Position numbers and translations under genes: made by a program. A DNA stretch of 64,000 nucleotides from Spirosoma oryzae (lineage in GTDB: Bacteria; Bacteroidota; Bacteroidia; Cytophagales; Spirosomataceae). How positions within the stretch are numbered: position 1 is the first letter of the stretch; every line of letters begins with the position of its first letter. The notes under the pieces were generated by a model. The model was not told the origin of the DNA. It did no database searches and saw only the letters and a list, made by a program, of their open reading frames with translations. Positions 13,438-59,213 of this stretch are shown one piece after another. The stretch is from positions 62,001 to 126,000 of the forward strand of contig NZ_PVTE01000002.1 in assembly GCF_003002825.1 (NCBI RefSeq). The letters run 5' to 3'.

Positions 13438-15348
13438 TTAGAAACGAATGAAAAACCGCAGGGCAAAGATGAGCACGATACTCAACACCATGGCAAAGAC
13501 GTAGAAGCCAATCGAACCGCTCTGCAACCGACGGAGCTGCGCCGAACTCTGCTTCACCAGCCAGGCGACGCCATTGACCAGTCCGTCGACGGCGAATTCG
13601 CCAAAGCTGTAGAATGTATCGCCCATGCTACGAATTGGCCGAACGATAGCCGCTTCGTACAGTTCGTCAACGTAGTATTTGTTGTAGATGACCTGCTCAG
13701 GCATCGACCGGTCGGCTTCGTCGGACGCGGGAACGGCCTTGCGACTAATGTACATCACATAGGCAGCGATCAGAGCCAGGAGGGCAACGCCGGCCGAAAC
13801 GGCCATCAGCACATACTCCGTGCTGTGCTCGATAGTCGACTCGGCAAACGCTTCGGGGTTGACCTGCCGTGATCCTTCGAAGATCGGCTCCAGAAAATGG
13901 CTCAGCCAGCCGCCACCGGGCAGGTTCAGGGCTCCACCAACTGCCGACAAAATCGCCAGTATGATCAGCGGAATCGTCATGGTAGCCGGCGACTCGTGCA
14001 GATGGTGCTTTTGTTCGGCCGTACCCCGGAATTCACCAAAGAAGGTTAGGAACAACAGGCGGAACATATAGAAGGAAGTCAGGCCGGACCCCAGTACGCC
14101 CAGTGCCCAGAGTACCTTGCTGTGCTCGAACACATGCGCCAGAATTTCATCTTTTGAGAAGAAACCGGCAAACGGCGGCAGACCAGAAATGGCCCACGTA
14201 CCGATAGCGAAGGTGATAAACGTGACGGGCAACGCTTTCCGTAAGCCACCCATTTTACGAATATCCTGTTCGTTAGACATCGCGTGAATAACACTACCGG
14301 CCCCCAGGAACAGCAACGCTTTGAAGAACGCGTGGGTAATAACATGGAACATGCCAGCCGTGTACGCCGTCGCGCTCAGGCCGAGGAACATGTAGCCCAG
14401 TTGCGAAACAGTCGAGTAAGCCAGTACTTTTTTAATGTCGTTTTGCAGCAGACCGATCGACGCAGCCAGTAGCGCGGTGATGATCGCGATAATACCAACC
14501 ACTTCGAGCGCCTGCGGAGCCAGCGTGTATAGTACGTTCGACCGAACGACCATGTATATACCGGCGGTTACCATCGTTGCCGCGTGGATCAGCGCCGACA
14601 CGGGGGTCGGACCGGCCATGGCGTCGGGAAGCCAGGTGTACAACGGTACCTGCGCCGACTTACCCATTGCCCCAACGAATAGCAGCAGCGCGATAACCAG
14701 CACCGTCGTATCGCCCATAGGCAGGCTCGTTGCCTGTTTAAACACGTCTACGTATTCTACCGTGCCGAAGGTGTTGATGATCGTGAAGATACCGAGCAGG
14801 AAACCGAGGTCACCGATGCGGTTCATCACGAAAGCTTTACGAGCTGCGTTGTTGTAGCTGACGTTCTTGTTCCAGAAGCCAATGAGCAGGTATGAGCAAA
14901 GCCCTACGCCTTCCCAGCCAATAAACATGATGACGTAGTTGGCCCCCATCACCAGCAGCAGCATGAAGAAAATAAACAGGTTCAGGAATGCCATGAACTT
15001 GCCAAATCCTTCATCGTGGTGCATGTAGCCGATACTGTACAGGTGAATCAGTGTACCGACGCCCGTCACGACGAGCAGCATCAGCAGGCTCAGCTGATCG
15101 ATCTGAAACGAAAACGGAATGTGCAGGTCGCCGACGCTGATCCAGTCGAACAGCGGTACGATCTGCGGACCGCCCTCCGCCGGGAAACTCATGAACAGCG
15201 ATACGACGATCAGAAACGAAGCCAGCACCGCCAGCGTGGCAATACCGCCAACCAGTCCGGTTGGTACGCGCCGAAACCCAACTCCGTTGATCACGAAACC
15301 AAGTAACGGAAGCAGGGGAATCAGGGCACAGAGTAATCCTATCTGCAT
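13438..15348 (-). CDS. nuoL: NADH-quinone oxidoreductase subunit L (NuoL)
   Basis: The largest proton-channel subunit, 636 aa, placed at the tip of the complex I membrane arm. It shows GWEGVGLCSYLLIGFW with the conserved Glu, the GKSAQVPLYTWLPDAMAGPTP motif, and KKVLAYSTVSQLGYMFLG. The C-terminal third, with a long amphipathic stretch between the last helices, fits the lateral helix that lies along the membrane arm. The last 20 residues form a final membrane anchor. nuoK is 66 bases upstream. Confidence 0.96.
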   Translation of the reverse strand: MQIGLLCALIPLLPLLGFVINGVGFRRVPTGLVGGIATLAVLASFLIVVSLFMSFPAEGGPQIVPLFDWISVGDLHIPFSFQIDQLSLLMLLVVTGVGTLIHLYSIGYMHHDEGFGKFMAFLNLFIFFMLLLVMGANYVIMFIGWEGVGLCSYLLIGFWNKNVSYNNAARKAFVMNRIGDLGFLLGIFTIINTFGTVEYVDVFKQATSLPMGDTTVLVIALLLFVGAMGKSAQVPLYTWLPDAMAGPTPVSALIHAATMVTAGIYMVVRSNVLYTLAPQALEVVGIIAIITALLAASIGLLQNDIKKVLAYSTVSQLGYMFLGLSATAYTAGMFHVITHAFFKALLFLGAGSVIHAMSNEQDIRKMGGLRKALPVTFITFAIGTWAISGLPPFAGFFSKDEILAHVFEHSKVLWALGVLGSGLTSFYMFRLLFLTFFGEFRGTAEQKHHLHESPATMTIPLIILAILSAVGGALNLPGGGWLSHFLEPIFEGSRQVNPEAFAESTIEHSTEYVLMAVSAGVALLALIAAYVMYISRKAVPASDEADRSMPEQVIYNKYYVDELYEAAIVRPIRSMGDTFYSFGEFAVDGLVNGVAWLVKQSSAQLRRLQSGSIGFYVFAMVLSIVLIFALRFFIRF

Positions 15349-22335: not shown

Positions 22336-22968
22336 ATGATTCGATCACTGATTGGCTTTGCCAGCTTTTGCCTGTTACTCAGCAGCTCCGTATTCGCACA
22401 GAAAGATCCCAAGGCGCAGGCTATCCTCGACGCAATGAGCCAGCAATACAAAGCACTGAAGTCGTACCAGGCTGCGTTTACCTACGCAAACAGCGGGTCC
22501 AGCGCAACCGGTACTATTACGGTTAAAGACAATAAATTCCGACTGAAACTCGACGGGCAGGAAGTCTTTACCGATGGGAAGACGATGTACACCTATTCGA
22601 AGGAAGCAAAGGAGATCAACGTGCAGGATTACGAAAGCGGCTCGGCCAGCGAACTCAATCCGGCGCAGATTTACACCGTATACCAGAAAGGCTATACGTA
22701 CCGATACGTCAGTGAGCAGAAGCAGGGTGGCCGTAGTCTCGACGTCATTGAGCTGAAGCCCACCAAAGCCAATAACACGATTGGTTCCGTCCGGCTGTCG
22801 ATCGATAAAGCCAACAAGATGATTCGCAACTGGACCATCACCGACAAAAACGGCAAGCGGACGACCTACACGATCACCAGCTTTAGGCCCAACGTTCCTG
22901 CTCCAGACGCTCTCTTCACCTTCGACAAGTCAAAATACCCCGGCGTGGAAGTAGTAGACCTTCGGTAG
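22336..22968 (+). CDS. lolA: LolA-like outer-membrane lipoprotein carrier protein
   Basis: A periplasmic lipoprotein chaperone of the LolA fold. From the ATG at 22336 (210 aa) the first 21 residues are a signal peptide ending SVFAQ. The rest matches the family: AILDAMSQQYKALKSYQAAFTY, then alternating strands with GTITVKDNKFRLKLDGQEVFTDGKTMYTYSKEAKEINVQDY-type pattern, and FTFDKSKYPGVEVVDLR at the end. It follows ftsK, an arrangement seen in many bacteria and consistent with LolA proper rather than a paralogue. LolB is not visible here, as is usual in this phylum. A palindrome lies immediately after the stop. Confidence 0.85.
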   Translation: MIRSLIGFASFCLLLSSSVFAQKDPKAQAILDAMSQQYKALKSYQAAFTYANSGSSATGTITVKDNKFRLKLDGQEVFTDGKTMYTYSKEAKEINVQDYESGSASELNPAQIYTVYQKGYTYRYVSEQKQGGRSLDVIELKPTKANNTIGSVRLSIDKANKMIRNWTITDKNGKRTTYTITSFRPNVPAPDALFTFDKSKYPGVEVVDLR

Positions 22969-23077: not shown

Positions 23078-23725
23078 TTACACTTTCGGCCCGAAGGCCA
23101 GGTCACCCGCGTCGCCCAATCCGGGAACGATGTAGAAATGATCGTTGAGGTGATCGTCAATTGCCCCCAGCCAGAGTCTACATTGTGGCAATTGCCGCTG
23201 TACATGCCGTATGCCTTCGGGGCTGGCCAGTATGGCGGCAATGTGCGTCTGGGCCGGTATACCGTAGCGTAACAAAGCGTGGTACACCTTCTCCAGCGAC
23301 TTGCCGGTCGCCAGCATAGGATCGCAGAGGATCAGCGTTTTACCGCTTAGGTCAGGGGCCACAATGTAGTCCATGGCGATTTCGAATGCTTCGTCGTCAC
23401 CGGCGCTATAGCCCCGGTAAGCGCCAGCGAATGCATTTTCCGCTCCATCGAAATAATTGGCAAATCCTTGGTGAAAAGGCAGACCGGCCCGTAAAATTGT
23501 AGCCAGTACTGGTTGTTGCCGCAGCAATTCCGTCGATGCAATACCCAGCGGAGTTTTCACGTCGACGGTCTGATAGGGCATTTCCTTTGATATTTCGTAG
23601 GCCATCAGCTCGCCCAGGCGTTCCAGATTCCGTCGAAACCGCAGTCGGTCTTTTTGAAGCGTGACATCGCGGAGTTCGGCAACGTACTGGTTGGCCAGCG
23701 AAGGTTGCTGTGCAAAAACAAACAT
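23078..23725 (-). CDS. upp: Uracil phosphoribosyltransferase
   Basis: Pyrimidine salvage: converts uracil and PRPP to UMP in the cytoplasm. The ATG at 23723-23725 gives 215 aa, close to the usual 208. The PRPP loop is in TLILCDPMLATGKSLEKVY, and the uracil-binding end is in YIVPGLGDAGDLAFG. The middle stretch ILRAGLPFHQGFANYFDGAENAF is also typical. The open frame extends 27 codons further upstream, but those residues are not part of the family. Confidence 0.95.
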   Translation of the reverse strand: MFVFAQQPSLANQYVAELRDVTLQKDRLRFRRNLERLGELMAYEISKEMPYQTVDVKTPLGIASTELLRQQPVLATILRAGLPFHQGFANYFDGAENAFAGAYRGYSAGDDEAFEIAMDYIVAPDLSGKTLILCDPMLATGKSLEKVYHALLRYGIPAQTHIAAILASPEGIRHVQRQLPQCRLWLGAIDDHLNDHFYIVPGLGDAGDLAFGPKV

Positions 23726-41408: not shown

Positions 41409-43046
41409 CTACCAGAACAGCGTGTAGAGCACTGCCAACGCGCCAAAAATTCCGGCAGATCCGATCATAAACGATGGCGTTACCCGAAACAGTGCCCGGT
41501 CGACAACGACTTCCCCCTGCGCCCGATGACTGGCCGGATCGGTCAGCGTAACGACAACCATCAGTAGTATGTCGATGCAGAACACCCACATCGTCCGGTG
41601 AAGAAACGGAATCGGATCGGCAGTCGTCCCCAACCAACCCGTTACTTCCGGCCAGAATTTCAGCAGAATCGACAAAGGAAGTGTTAGAATAGCGACGGTC
41701 ATTGCCGCCCGGTTAGTCGCCCGCTTCCAGAAAAAACCGAGGAGGAAAATGGCAAAAATGCCGGGGGTGATAAAATTGGTGTACTCCTGAATGTACTGAT
41801 AGACCTGATCGAGTGAGCGGAGCAGTGGAGCCAGCCCAATCGCCACGACGAACGACAGCACAACCGCCCAGCGGCCCACCCGAACAAGCTTTTGTTCAGA
41901 CGCTTGCGGGTCTACGTATTTCCGGTACAGGTCGAGTGTGAATATGGTCGAGATCGAATTGGCTTTTCCCGCCAACGACGCTACGACGGCGGCTGTTAGC
42001 GCAGCGAAGGCCAACCCTTTCATACCGATCGGCAGCAGATTCATCAGCACCGGATACGCATGATCCGGCTTGACAACGCCCGACGCATCGGTCATTGCCG
42101 CCCGGAACGATCCTTCGTTGAACAGCACAAACGCAGCGATGCCCGGAATAACGGCGATGATCGGGATCATCAGTTTCAGGAAAGCCGCGAAAAGAATGCC
42201 GCTGCGCGCCGTTTTCAGATCAGCCCCCAGCGCCCGCTGCACGATGTACTGATTGCAGCCCCAGTAGTACAGGTTGTTGATCCACATCCCCCCCAGCACC
42301 AGCGACATTCCCGGTAATTCGAGGTAGTGCGGATGCCCTTTTTCGAAATACATGTGAAAATGACTGTCGGCCCGGCTGCGCAGTTGCGACAGACCGTTCA
42401 TAACGCCAGCCGTCCCACTCCGGTCTGCAACCAGCTCCAGTGCCAGATACGTGACCACCAAGCCACCGATAACCAGCACGATCACTTGAATGACGTCGGT
42501 GTATCCGATTACCTTCATACCGCCCAGCGTGATGAAAATGGCGAACAGCGCCAGTCCGACAGTACAGGTCGTGAACGAAATCCCCGCGAGCGACTCAATA
42601 GCCATTGCCCCCAGATATAGAATCGACGTCAGGTTAACGACAACGTAGACGACCAGCCAGAAAACTGCCAGAATCGTACTGACCGTGTCGCTGTAGCGCT
42701 GGGCCAGGAACTGCGGCATGGTATAGATATGATTCCGCAGGTAGATCGGAATGAAGAACGCAGCCACGATAACGAGCGTAGCCGCAGCAATCCATTCGTA
42801 CGACGAAATCGCCAGGCCCATCGCAAAACCCGATCCCGCCATACCGATAAAATGCTCCGCCGAAATATTCGACGCAATCAGCGAGGCACCAATCGCCCAC
42901 CAGGTTAGCGACCCCTCTGCCAGGAAAAAATCGGTGGTATTCGTCTCCGCCTTACGTCGACGCTGGTACACCCAATAGCCATAGCCAACGACGATGACGA
43001 AATAAACGAGAAAAACAAGGTAATCTGCCGTGGCAAGGTGGTTCAT
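41409..43046 (-). CDS. SGLT-type sodium/sugar symporter, probably for inositol
   Basis: A 545-residue SSS-family transporter with 14 or so helices. It has the sugar-transporter signature of the SGLT/SMIT branch: IGASLIASNISAEHFIGMAGSGFAMG near residues 45-70, then SSYEWIAA and YLGAMAIESLAG. Position directly before myo-inositol oxygenase (92 bases) suggests that inositol is the cargo; other sugars cannot be excluded. The only ATG is at 43044-43046. It touches the base of a terminator-like hairpin (43047-43093), leaving no room for a ribosome site. A TTG 11 codons upstream would lie inside the hairpin. Confidence 0.9.
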   Translation of the reverse strand: MNHLATADYLVFLVYFVIVVGYGYWVYQRRRKAETNTTDFFLAEGSLTWWAIGASLIASNISAEHFIGMAGSGFAMGLAISSYEWIAAATLVIVAAFFIPIYLRNHIYTMPQFLAQRYSDTVSTILAVFWLVVYVVVNLTSILYLGAMAIESLAGISFTTCTVGLALFAIFITLGGMKVIGYTDVIQVIVLVIGGLVVTYLALELVADRSGTAGVMNGLSQLRSRADSHFHMYFEKGHPHYLELPGMSLVLGGMWINNLYYWGCNQYIVQRALGADLKTARSGILFAAFLKLMIPIIAVIPGIAAFVLFNEGSFRAAMTDASGVVKPDHAYPVLMNLLPIGMKGLAFAALTAAVVASLAGKANSISTIFTLDLYRKYVDPQASEQKLVRVGRWAVVLSFVVAIGLAPLLRSLDQVYQYIQEYTNFITPGIFAIFLLGFFWKRATNRAAMTVAILTLPLSILLKFWPEVTGWLGTTADPIPFLHRTMWVFCIDILLMVVVTLTDPASHRAQGEVVVDRALFRVTPSFMIGSAGIFGALAVLYTLFW

Positions 43047-43093
43047 AAAAAAGGTGGGGTTTGGATGCCAAAGCACCAAACCCCACCTTTTTT
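43047..43093 (-). terminator. Terminator-like hairpin directly before the SGLT symporter ATG
   Basis: An 18-bp perfect stem (43047-43064 with 43076-43093) with T6 at its 3' end on the minus strand. The last T is followed at once by the ATG at 43046. It could end accC transcripts or act as an attenuator for the symporter. Confidence 0.85.
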
Positions 43094-43104
43094 ACCGCAT
43101 TCAA

Positions 43105-43189
43105 TGAGCGAAAGACTGAAAGAGCGAAAAAGTGAATAGTTGCTAATGCAGACAGTCGCACTTTCGATCTTTCAGTCTTTCACTCTTTA
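43105..43189. repeat. Period-4 palindrome at the 3' end of accC (NGAN variant)
   Basis: Left arm 43105-43134 (TGAG CGAA AGAC TGAA AGAG CGAA) and right arm 43159-43189 (TTTC GATC TTTC AGTC TTTC ACTC) pair with two single mismatches and a two-base bulge. Each arm repeats every four bases. The right arm includes the accC stop codon (TTA on plus, 43187-43189). Confidence 0.8.
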
Positions 43190-44533: not shown

Positions 44534-44550
44534 AATATTAAAATGAGAAA

Positions 44551-44621
44551 ATGACTGAATGATTGAGTGACTGAATGAAAAGCCTACACCGGCCTATTCA
44601 ATCACTCAATCATTCAGTCAT
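44551..44621. repeat. Period-4 (TGAN)n palindrome between accB and accC
   Basis: Arms 44551-44576 and 44596-44621 pair with one mismatch. The left arm reads TGAC TGAA TGAT TGAG TGAC TGAA, the right arm is the mirror NTCA form. TGA therefore recurs every four bases and stops all three frames on each strand. The element lies between the accB stop (44634) and the accC start (44533) and fills most of that gap. Confidence 0.9.
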
Positions 44622-44633
44622 TCATCAATTAAA

Positions 44634-54917: not shown

Positions 54918-55625
54918 ATGAGTGCTGGCAAGACTGCCCAACCACTTCATCGTATTCTGGTCGTCGACGACGATGCCGACATCGTCGAGATGCTGGAGTA
55001 CAATCTGACAAAAGAAGGTTATGACGTACGCACCGCTACCGACGGACGCAAAGCGCTCGACATAGCCCGTACGTATTTTCCCGAGCTGGTTATGCTCGAT
55101 ATCATGATGCCGCATCTCGACGGCATCGAAACGGGTCGGCAACTCCGCGAAATTCCCGAACTACGGCAGACATACATTCTTTATCTGACAGCCCGTTCGG
55201 AAGAGTACTCGGAAGTAGCGGCCTTCGACGTGGGTGCCGACGATTACATTACAAAGCCGATCAAGCCCCGGGCGCTCATGAGCCGCATCAACGCGCTGTT
55301 CCGTCGGGAAGCCCAAAAAGCCGATCCGGGCGAACAGATTGTGATTGCGGATCTGTTGATTAACCGGAAAAATTACTCCGTCAGTCAGGGCGAAAAATCA
55401 GTCATTCTCCCGAAGAAGGAATTTGAACTGCTGTTTTTTCTGGCGCAACACCCCAACAAGGTATTTAGCCGGGAAGAGCTGCTCCAGAAAATATGGGGTG
55501 CCGACATTTACGTGCTGGAGCGCACCGTCGACGTTCACATCCGGAAGCTGCGCGAAAAAATCGGCGACACCCATATCCGCACGCTGAAGGGTGTCGGTTA
55601 TATGTTCACCGATCAAAATGAGTGA
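54918..55625 (+). CDS. OmpR/PhoB-type response regulator
   Basis: A two-domain DNA-binding regulator (235 aa). The receiver has the acidic pair at Asp17-19 (LVVDDDAD), phospho-acceptor Asp61 (LVMLDIMMP), and Lys113 (DYITKPIKP). The winged-helix effector has LPKKEFELLFFLAQHPNKVFSREELLQKIWG and TVDVHIRKLREKIGDTHIRTLKGVGYMF. The last two residues (Asn, Glu) and the stop are written by the beginning of a palindrome. The cognate kinase is encoded next after this repeat. Confidence 0.95.
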   Translation: MSAGKTAQPLHRILVVDDDADIVEMLEYNLTKEGYDVRTATDGRKALDIARTYFPELVMLDIMMPHLDGIETGRQLREIPELRQTYILYLTARSEEYSEVAAFDVGADDYITKPIKPRALMSRINALFRREAQKADPGEQIVIADLLINRKNYSVSQGEKSVILPKKEFELLFFLAQHPNKVFSREELLQKIWGADIYVLERTVDVHIRKLREKIGDTHIRTLKGVGYMFTDQNE

Positions 55626-55743
55626 ATGAACGAATTATTGAATGAGTGAATGACTGCACACCTGCTCAGTAAGCTATTTTTACTGGAGGCTGAATAACCA
55701 AATTTCATTCGCTCATTCAGCCATTCACTCATTCGTTCATTCA
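55619..55743. repeat. Period-4 (TGAN)n palindrome between response regulator and kinase
   Basis: The left arm (55619-55657, words GTGA ATGA ACGA and TTGA ATGA GTGA ATGA) and right arm (55704-55743, words ATTC GCTC ATTC and ATTC ACTC ATTC GTTC ATTC) pair well once an 8-base insertion in the left arm is allowed. The response regulator stop codon (TGA 55623-55625) is inside the first repeat words. The right arm ends three bases before the kinase ATG at 55747. Confidence 0.88.
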
Positions 55744-55746
55744 ACA

Positions 55747-56781
55747 ATGTCTCTCAGTCCCCGCGTTATTGCCTTTTTGCTGGCCTGCCTGATTTCGGTC
55801 GTGCCGGTTATCTTCCTGACATTCGTTGATGGCGTAACCGACAGTATGCTGTTTGTGGTGGGGCTTTCCAGCTTCGCTATCTCCTTTTTCCTGGTCTTGT
55901 ATGCGATCGAATTGCTCGTTTACCGGGAGGTCGATAAGATGTACAAAACGATTCGGCAACTGAAAATCCGGGACTTCAGTCTGTCGCGCAAAGCCGTCAT
56001 TCGCGACGATAATCCGTTCAAAAAACTCAATGCCGAATTCTTCGTCTACGTCACGCGAAAGCAGAAAGAAATCGAGGAATTAAAGCGGCTCGAACAGTTC
56101 CGGCGCGAGTTTCTGGCCGATGTATCGCACGAACTAAAAACCCCCATTTTTGCGGCACAGGGCTTTATTCATACGCTGATCGACGGCGCTGTCGACGATG
56201 ATCGGGTACGTGACAAGTTCCTGTCGAAGGCCGCCAAAAGCCTCGACGGTCTCGATGCGCTGGTGAAAGACCTGGTGGCACTTTCTCAACTGGAAACGGG
56301 TGAGATCAAGATGAACTTCGAGCGGGTCGATCTGAAACTAATCACGCAGGAGATTTTCGATCAGCTGGAAGATATAGCCGAAGCCAAGCAAACCACGCTC
56401 CGCTTACGGACATCCCTGCCCGCCCCGGCCCTGGTGAAAGCCGACAATCAGCGTATCCGGCAGGTTATGACGAACCTGGTTGAAAATGCCATAAAGTACG
56501 GCAACGAAAACGGGCGCGTTCAGGTCAGTCTGGAGGAAGATAAAAAGCACATCATCGTGTCAGTGCGCGACGACGGACCCGGCATTCCACCGGAGCACCT
56601 GAGCCGAATTTTCGAGCGGTTTTATCGGGTTGAAAAGAGCCGGTCCAAAGATCGGGGTGGTACCGGTCTGGGCCTTGCCATCGTGAAGCATATCCTGAGT
56701 GCGCACAAAGCCAAAATCACCGTCATGAGCAAGGTCGACAAAGGCACCACGTTCCGCTTCAAACTGGATAAGATGGAATAA
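55747..56781 (+). CDS. PhoR-like sensor histidine kinase
   Basis: A membrane-bound kinase of 344 aa. Two N-terminal helices (residues about 7-27 and 34-58) have almost no loop between them, so it lacks a large outside sensor. The phospho-acceptor His128 is in LADVSHELKTPIFAAQGF. The ATPase domain has N box (MTNLVENAIKYGNENG), DDGPGIP, FERFYRV and GGTGLGLAIVKHI. It is most like PhoR of Bacteroidota. The gene lies 121 bases after its regulator, with a palindrome filling the gap. Confidence 0.94.
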   Translation: MSLSPRVIAFLLACLISVVPVIFLTFVDGVTDSMLFVVGLSSFAISFFLVLYAIELLVYREVDKMYKTIRQLKIRDFSLSRKAVIRDDNPFKKLNAEFFVYVTRKQKEIEELKRLEQFRREFLADVSHELKTPIFAAQGFIHTLIDGAVDDDRVRDKFLSKAAKSLDGLDALVKDLVALSQLETGEIKMNFERVDLKLITQEIFDQLEDIAEAKQTTLRLRTSLPAPALVKADNQRIRQVMTNLVENAIKYGNENGRVQVSLEEDKKHIIVSVRDDGPGIPPEHLSRIFERFYRVEKSRSKDRGGTGLGLAIVKHILSAHKAKITVMSKVDKGTTFRFKLDKME

Positions 56782-56860
56782 TCGTTTAAGGTTTAAAGTC
56801 TAATGTTCAAGGTTGTGCTGCCGGTCAAACCTTATACTTTGAACATTAAACGGTAAACCC
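56782..56860. repeat. Imperfect palindrome between kinase and aspartyl protease genes (GTTTAAGGTT family)
   Basis: The left arm begins immediately after the kinase stop and contains GTTTAAGGTTTAAAGTCTAA and TGTTCAAGGTT. The right arm contains AACCTTATACTTTGAACATT and AAACGGTAAACC. The words pair in an imperfect way with bulges. It ends five bases before the stop of the convergent gene. Similar words occur at 34858-34935. Confidence 0.7.
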
Positions 56861-59127: not shown

Positions 59128-59213
59128 GACTGATTGAGTGATGGAATGATTGAATGGGTCTGTAAATCGGGTCATTCAATCATTCCGTCACTCAATCAGT
59201 CAACCAATCAATC
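59128..59213. repeat. Period-4 (TGAN)n palindrome between tpiA and cupin gene
   Basis: Arms 59128-59156 and 59173-59201 are 29 bases each and pair with a single T-G pair. The left arm reads CTGA TTGA GTGA TGGA ATGA TTGA ATGG; the right arm is the NTCA mirror and continues as CAACCAATCAATC up to the ATG of the cupin gene (59214). The element thus runs from stop to start. Confidence 0.9.

Follow-up and report, generated by a model that had tools for sequence, protein, structure and literature searches.

REP sequences and BIMEs, which are associated with RAYT proteins, are intergenic, palindromic and present in many copies. In PMC12306157, REPs located at most 15 nt from a stop codon were reported to stall ribosomes, and REPs were reported to block exoribonucleases. 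The hairpins described here, built from short repeated words and referred to as repeat-word hairpins, share the high copy number, the intergenic location and the palindromic structure. However, they have no common consensus, do not carry the GTAG/CGTC tag above chance, have arms composed of words of 7-8 nt and are not found beside the single RAYT-like gene of the genome. By the tests made here, repeat-word hairpins are not REPs. Direct repeats of the heptamer TAACTGA have been reported from Beggiatoaceae, Cyanobacteria and five Bacteroidetes (PMC4679880). These are similar in having 7-nt units, in occupying intergenic gaps and in occurring in Bacteroidetes, but they consist of one fixed word in direct orientation, mostly near gene starts in the main species, and two-armed repeat hairpins are absent from their description in the sections of that paper considered here. 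Intrinsic terminators also place a hairpin past a stop codon, whereas most of the present hairpins lack a U-tract, and they have a long stem and no conserved sequence. Quasi-palindromes are corrected by template switching, and small inversions of the loop occur in hairpins of chloroplast genomes. Hairpins altered in this way would be expected to show matching arms and loops that have been turned around, but such events are known as a mutational process and not as the upkeep of a class of elements. Template switching is also mentioned in PMC4060949.

The window, i.e. the whole stretch of 64,000 nucleotides that was analysed, contains a response regulator gene followed by a sensor histidine kinase gene (Table 1). 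The gap between both genes (55626-55746) is spanned by a long hairpin of repeated GA-words (55619-55743). In agreement with the preliminary description, the stop codon of the regulator is one of the TGA words of the left arm, and the right arm ends three bases before the start codon of the kinase. The gap was also thought to be made almost entirely of 4-base words; the hairpin indeed consists of GA-words, but approximately 50 central bases of the gap are not such words. Likewise, closure of all three reading frames within 12 bases was found on the plus strand, but on the minus strand one of the three frames is left open by the focal arm. Within the 64 kb, TGAN is repeated three or more times in succession at four places, each of them inside a hairpin (44552, 55619/55639 and 59131). 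TCAN is repeated in this way at three places, which belong to the right arms of the elements at 44551 and 59128, and the focal right arm has none in this 64-kb count. The loops of the regulator-kinase gaps L030, L037 and L041 contain TAATTTTG- or TAATTTTA-like words resembling the Bacteroidetes promoter motif, which is TAnnTTTG. Judging from these promoter-like words, some species may transcribe the kinase from a separate promoter.

Table 1 Features of the regulator-kinase junction and other hairpins of the window (positions are those of the window)
Feature	Position	Strand	Remark
Response regulator (Response_reg, Trans_reg_C)	54918..55625	+	
Left (5') arm, regulator-kinase hairpin	55619..55654	+	takes in regulator stop TGA 55623-55625
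Inner part and loop, regulator-kinase hairpin	55655..55705	+	RNA fold
Right (3') arm, regulator-kinase hairpin	55706..55743	+	ends 3 bases 5' of kinase ATG (55747)
Sensor histidine kinase (HisKA, HATPase_c)	55747..56781	+	
Further repeat-word hairpin, convergent gap past kinase	56783..56852	.	loop inverted in species G020
Same-dialect hairpin between triosephosphate isomerase and cupin (DUF985) genes	59128..59201	+	
Same-dialect hairpin, accB-accC gap (44534-44633)	44550..44622	-	
GAAAGACTGAAAGA variant hairpin directly past accC stop	43106..43185	-	
Separate U-tract hairpin beyond variant hairpin, likely operon terminator	43046..43094	-	

Three more elements were confirmed where they had been placed before, namely between accB and accC, between the triosephosphate isomerase and cupin genes and, as a variant, just past accC. 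RNA folding of the four elements gave -42.9, -51.1, -53.2 and -42.6 kcal/mol (z -5.7 to -10.9), and none of 200 dinucleotide shuffles of each folds as well. Using a periodicity test, seven of the gaps in the window were found to contain a repeat-word hairpin; one boundary of each of these gaps is at 22968, 40310, 43046, 44533, 55625, 56781 and 59125. Searching the window against Rfam yielded no match at gathering score.

Over the whole genome, the strict pattern TGANTGANTGA..TCANTCANTCA has 81 overlapping forward matches and its reversed control none. Within the genus, 35 of 36 genomes contain the strict TGAN hairpin pattern, compared to 1 of 23 genomes from elsewhere; with the reversed control there was a single forward match, in one genome. 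A scan of the gaps that presupposed no word revealed that TGAN is one dialect of several, the others including GAAAGAGTGAAAGAGCG, CGGTTTACGGTATTC, GTTATAAAGTTGTAGG, GACAGGATTACAGGATT and more. Under a strict rule the dialect with GA at every fourth base makes up 12 of the 148 hairpins in 864 kb of genome G000. A heptamer dialect, CGGTTTA/CGGTATT, has 46 strict matches in G000, 11 in G022, 8 in G020 and between 0 and 3 per genome in the remaining 33. Three genomes of the genus (G000, G004 and G026), together contributing 1.59 Mb, yielded 85 repeat-word hairpins in total; the pooled gap counts are based on these genomes, G028, G027 and G020 being left out. Gaps of 30 to 500 nt were scored (up to 400 nt in the set from outside the genus), with gene starts from a simple codon-usage caller. 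The periodicity criterion (p < 0.05 by shuffling) would by chance admit about 14 of 281 hairpins. A small E. coli control of 62 gaps gave 10 hairpins of score >=13, none of them periodic.

The best lag of the 85 repetitive arms is 7 in 47 cases, 8 in 25, 9 in 7 and another value in 6. At the two best-studied junctions, autocorrelation of the left arm is strongest at lag 8 in 25/30 and 29/30 orthologous gaps, with lag 4 weaker, so that the four-base step is half of the stronger unit. The dominant repeat of the orthologous gaps is 8 bases long and not 4 as noted earlier, and most of the class has a period of 7 or 8. The 5' arm contains more G than C in 79 of the 85 hairpins, less in 5 and equal amounts in 1; outside the genus this bias is not clear (10 versus 5). 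Several loops (e.g. L051, L054 and L069) have in common an 8-base motif, GCTGRCGC or its complement, although the words of their arms are unrelated. As a general loop tag it was rejected, being present in only 9/148 hairpins of G000 and 3/162 of G004 and G028.

Long hairpins (score >=16) were found in 76/336 codirectional, 27/62 convergent and 4/82 divergent gaps of G000, and in 32/150, 13/31 and 3/36 of these gaps, respectively, in G004, while shuffled gaps reach this score at or below 0.03%. Repeat-word hairpins occupy 71/613 codirectional, 12/122 convergent and only 2/163 divergent gaps (divergent versus the rest, Fisher p 5.6e-6). In codirectional gaps 64 of the 71 start at most 15 nt from the upstream stop codon, compared to 64 of 116 other hairpins, and 61 are closer to the stop and 10 closer to the next start (p 4.6e-10). 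The median distances are 3 nt from stop to left arm and 15 nt from right arm to start. Each of the 12 convergent repeat-word hairpins lies within 22 nt of both stops, and many hairpins occupy a large part of the space that separates them from the following gene or stop codon. This stop-anchored placement, together with the near-absence from divergent gaps, points to an element acting at the 3' end of the message.

Orthologous gaps were collected as best-scoring matches from 30 of the 36 genomes per junction; the regulator-kinase gap L032 (219 nt) and the accC start of L050 are mis-delimited, and the hairpin of L042 is an inner one. A hairpin of score >=13 is present in the accB-accC gap of 27/30 species and in the regulator-kinase gap of 25/30, the hairpins of the other 3 and 5 gaps, respectively, being weak or decayed, and at both junctions the words differ between species. 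They include TGAATGAG and GAAAGAGTG, with other words in single species. Three TGAN junctions of G000 (44533, 55625 and 59125) have GAAAGAGYG words in G020. The median score of native hairpins was 27 versus 15.5 for species-mixed halves at accB-accC, and 18 versus 10.5 at regulator-kinase. At each junction, the best partner of a left half is the right half of the same hairpin in just 10/30 species, because dialects are common to several species. Orthologous codirectional junctions tend to agree between genomes in having or lacking a hairpin (counted as neither/second only/first only/both), with every hairpin included, plain terminators too. The tables were 13/3/3/7 for G004/G026 (p 0.015), 8/0/0/6 for G020/G000 (p 3e-4), 58/4/4/31 for G004/G028, 24/4/3/8 for G026/G027, 14/5/3/7 for G004/G027 and 10/3/2/5 for G004/G000 (p 0.06); nine other comparisons gave p > 0.1, distant pairs being mostly too small for significance.

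The surroundings of accC provide an inner control. The stretch past accC has a hairpin of score >=13 in 26/30 loci, and one related U-tract sequence was recognized by eye in 21/30. The likely acc terminator is thus conserved in sequence, while the repeat-word hairpin is not. In the efp-accB gap, a hairpin of score >=13 was found in 9/29 accB-accC loci. One locus, L144, derives from a metagenome-assembled genome labelled Spirosoma fluviale; its accB-accC gap is 30 nt long and has no hairpin, and its accC is only 82% identical. If the genus name of the window is right, the species label of L144 is probably wrong.

Comparison of sister species revealed how the hairpins change. Among 42 comparable sister hairpins, 7 loops are inverted, 20 have the same orientation and 15 are undecided; by sister pair the inverted loops number 5/28, 1/6 (weak) and 1/8. 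The clearest case is the regulator-kinase gap of G004/G028, where one loop is exactly the reverse complement of the other. A 4-nt unit is absent from both arms of the accB-accC hairpin between G026 and G027, with the same loop beside it, and an 8-nt unit is absent from both arms of the regulator-kinase hairpin between G004 and G028 (both by eye). Native arms pair better than sister-swapped arms in 11/14 cases for G026/G027 (p 0.003) and in 7/9 for G000/G020 (p 0.02). For the closest pair, G004/G028, native arms are better in 15/38 (p 0.024), swapped arms in 9, and 14 are equal. The earlier view of the elements as a class, as opposed to a simple copy-and-paste element, was supported, and the arms of one gap tend to change together between close species. 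Growth by tetranucleotide slippage or a constraint on the 4-base step was also suggested; loss of units is indeed seen, but a strict step of four bases is not supported as a general rule. Slippage alone would not account for the inverted loops, which suggest that one arm is copied from the other. The natural reading of these comparisons is that the arms are rewritten by copying or strand exchange between them. Compensating changes of single bases are rare. The focal gap is identical at 102/124 bases between G000 and G022, and of its 42 pairs 2 show double changes, 6 a one-sided change that keeps the pair and 4 are broken. Among 340 base pairs of 16 near-identical gaps, 22 are broken, 4 are kept by G-U and 1 shows a double compensatory change; compensation at the level of single bases is therefore weak and was discarded as the chief evidence of selection.

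Weaker relatives of the class occur in other Bacteroidota. In 80 Bacteroidota accB-accC gaps, a hairpin better than 98% of its shuffles was found in 0/34 gaps of at most 60 nt and in 23/46 longer gaps. Several of these hairpins have their own repeated words, such as TTAGAAATTACAAATT in Pontibacter, GAAATTATAAATTATAAATT in Flavobacterium turcicum and GATGTGC in Mucilaginibacter, while the accB-accC gaps in the Dyadobacter, Algoriphagus and Cyclobacterium records are short and plain. The 801 gaps of 78/80 loci outside the genus, a sample centred on accC and not a survey of the phylum, contain 15 repeat-word hairpins, all codirectional, and none was found among the 30 convergent and 3 divergent hairpins of this set. 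Judged by gap length, 9 of the 15 are the accB-accC gap itself.

Our main reading, to which we assign a probability of about 0.5, is that these elements form a family of intercistronic or 3'-UTR RNA hairpins that would work, in transcribed form, on the upstream message and be rewritten between their own arms. The transcribed hairpin would most likely be a barrier to 3'-to-5' decay of the upstream message, and perhaps also to ribosomes ending at the nearby stop. As stop-near REPs stall ribosomes and REPs block exonucleases, according to the part of PMC12306157 cited above, the repeat-word hairpins may by analogy work like REPs. Of the roles suggested earlier, we favour a possible function in RNA processing or 3'-end protection. 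The upstream product would then outweigh the downstream one. The regulator would presumably exceed the kinase, accB exceed accC, and triosephosphate isomerase exceed the cupin. One arm would be copied from the other when the arms switch templates or exchange strands, which would keep the shape while the sequence drifts, and one dialect may in this way replace another.

The main and serious rival, which we consider less likely, is neutral upkeep by the same arm-copying process. Replication strand switching and slippage would keep making near-perfect hairpins in free sequence, which 3' regions tolerate and promoters and genes do not, and the hairpins would have no function. Loop inversions and joint arm changes are the trace expected of such a process, the scarcity in divergent gaps would be expected if hairpins that damage promoters are purged, and the weak base-by-base compensation as well as the many Bacteroidota lacking an accB-accC hairpin agree with it. 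However, the hairpin has been retained at both junctions in 27/30 and 25/30 species despite changed words, stop anchoring is pronounced (61 versus 10), and the excess of G over C in the 5' arm within the genus (79 versus 5) is not obviously expected.

Lower in probability is a mobile origin, as a dispersed palindrome comparable to REP/RAYT elements or MITEs. The elements are palindromic, intergenic and high in copy number, their dialects are lineage-specific, the genome has one Y1_Tnp (RAYT-like) gene, and the loop motif GCTGRCGC occurs in 4/27 accB-accC loops (0.025 expected) and in 1/25 regulator-kinase loops. However, the 3.2 kb around the RAYT-like gene (L076, inspected by eye) have GTAGCCCAGAC repeats and none of the hairpin words. 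GTAG and CGTC tags were found near the hairpin base in 5 and 0 of 85 cases, against a shuffled expectation of 6.3 and 6.4. The dialects share no consensus by eye, and a clean insertion relative to an empty site was seen in only 1/22 sister gaps with a one-sided hairpin (score >=13). As there is no tag above chance and no common consensus, and the RAYT-like gene is not flanked by the hairpins, a REP/RAYT origin was set aside. The RAYT-like gene itself (L076, G000:C40:29440, 960-2020) is flanked by GTAGCCCAGAC.. palindromes; besides the repeat-word hairpins, the genome contains a separate REP system of classical appearance. Contig C1 of G000 contains large composite palindromes, GTAGCCTGGACGTCCACGTCCGGGTG, in inverted pairs, e.g. 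14847-15023 (L077) and 23087-23310 (L078), which are possibly REPINs of that RAYT system.

We give a similarly low probability to a terminator or attenuator that needs no U-tract, aided for example by a pyrimidine-rich 3' arm or by Rho. Codirectional and convergent placement and the excess of C over G in the 3' arm (79/85) would suit it. However, the acc operon is closed by another hairpin, which has A- and T-runs (21/30 loci, by eye), and accB and accC are a conserved pair between which read-through is presumably needed. A T run of at least 5 near the 3' base was found in 4/71 codirectional and 0/12 convergent repeat-word hairpins; other hairpins score little higher (13/116 and 9/67), so this test separates poorly. 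A U-tract terminator was rejected on the 4/71 count, though the test is weak. The transcription stop proposed in the preliminary description is weakened by the scarcity of U-tracts in this low-power test and by the separate U-tract hairpin past accC. Least probable is a translation element, either an all-frame stop buffer or a lock coupling the next start to ribosomes ending at the stop. In its favour, the hairpin reaches from near the stop to near the next start, all frames are closed by 12/23 of the lag-8 left arms versus 6.5 expected, and all 15 repeat-word hairpins outside the genus are codirectional with 0 among 30 convergent hairpins. Against it, lag-7 arms close all frames in only 2/37 cases versus 1.4 expected, convergent gaps of the genus, which have no downstream start, carry hairpins at a similar rate (12/122 versus 71/613), and the translation-stop buffer suggested earlier was rejected as a general role with just 15/71 left arms closing all three frames, 9.4 being expected.

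More tentatively, and with the odds somewhat against it, we propose a class of Bacteroidota elements whose heritable content would be shape and place and not sequence: 3'-end tandem-word hairpins, with arms mutually rewritten by strand switching, and with lineage dialects at the same junctions. No description of such a hairpin class was found in the open-access literature, and six arm words themselves gave no match there; subscription journals and preprints lay outside this scope, so that this is weak evidence. If this is true, the hairpins would represent non-coding elements overlooked by ordinary homology searches, since it is mainly their fold and location that are preserved. Pairs of sister species hold a natural record of the rewriting of hairpins by inverted-repeat copying. 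If the hairpins are functional, they could explain unequal expression of neighbouring operon genes in this group.
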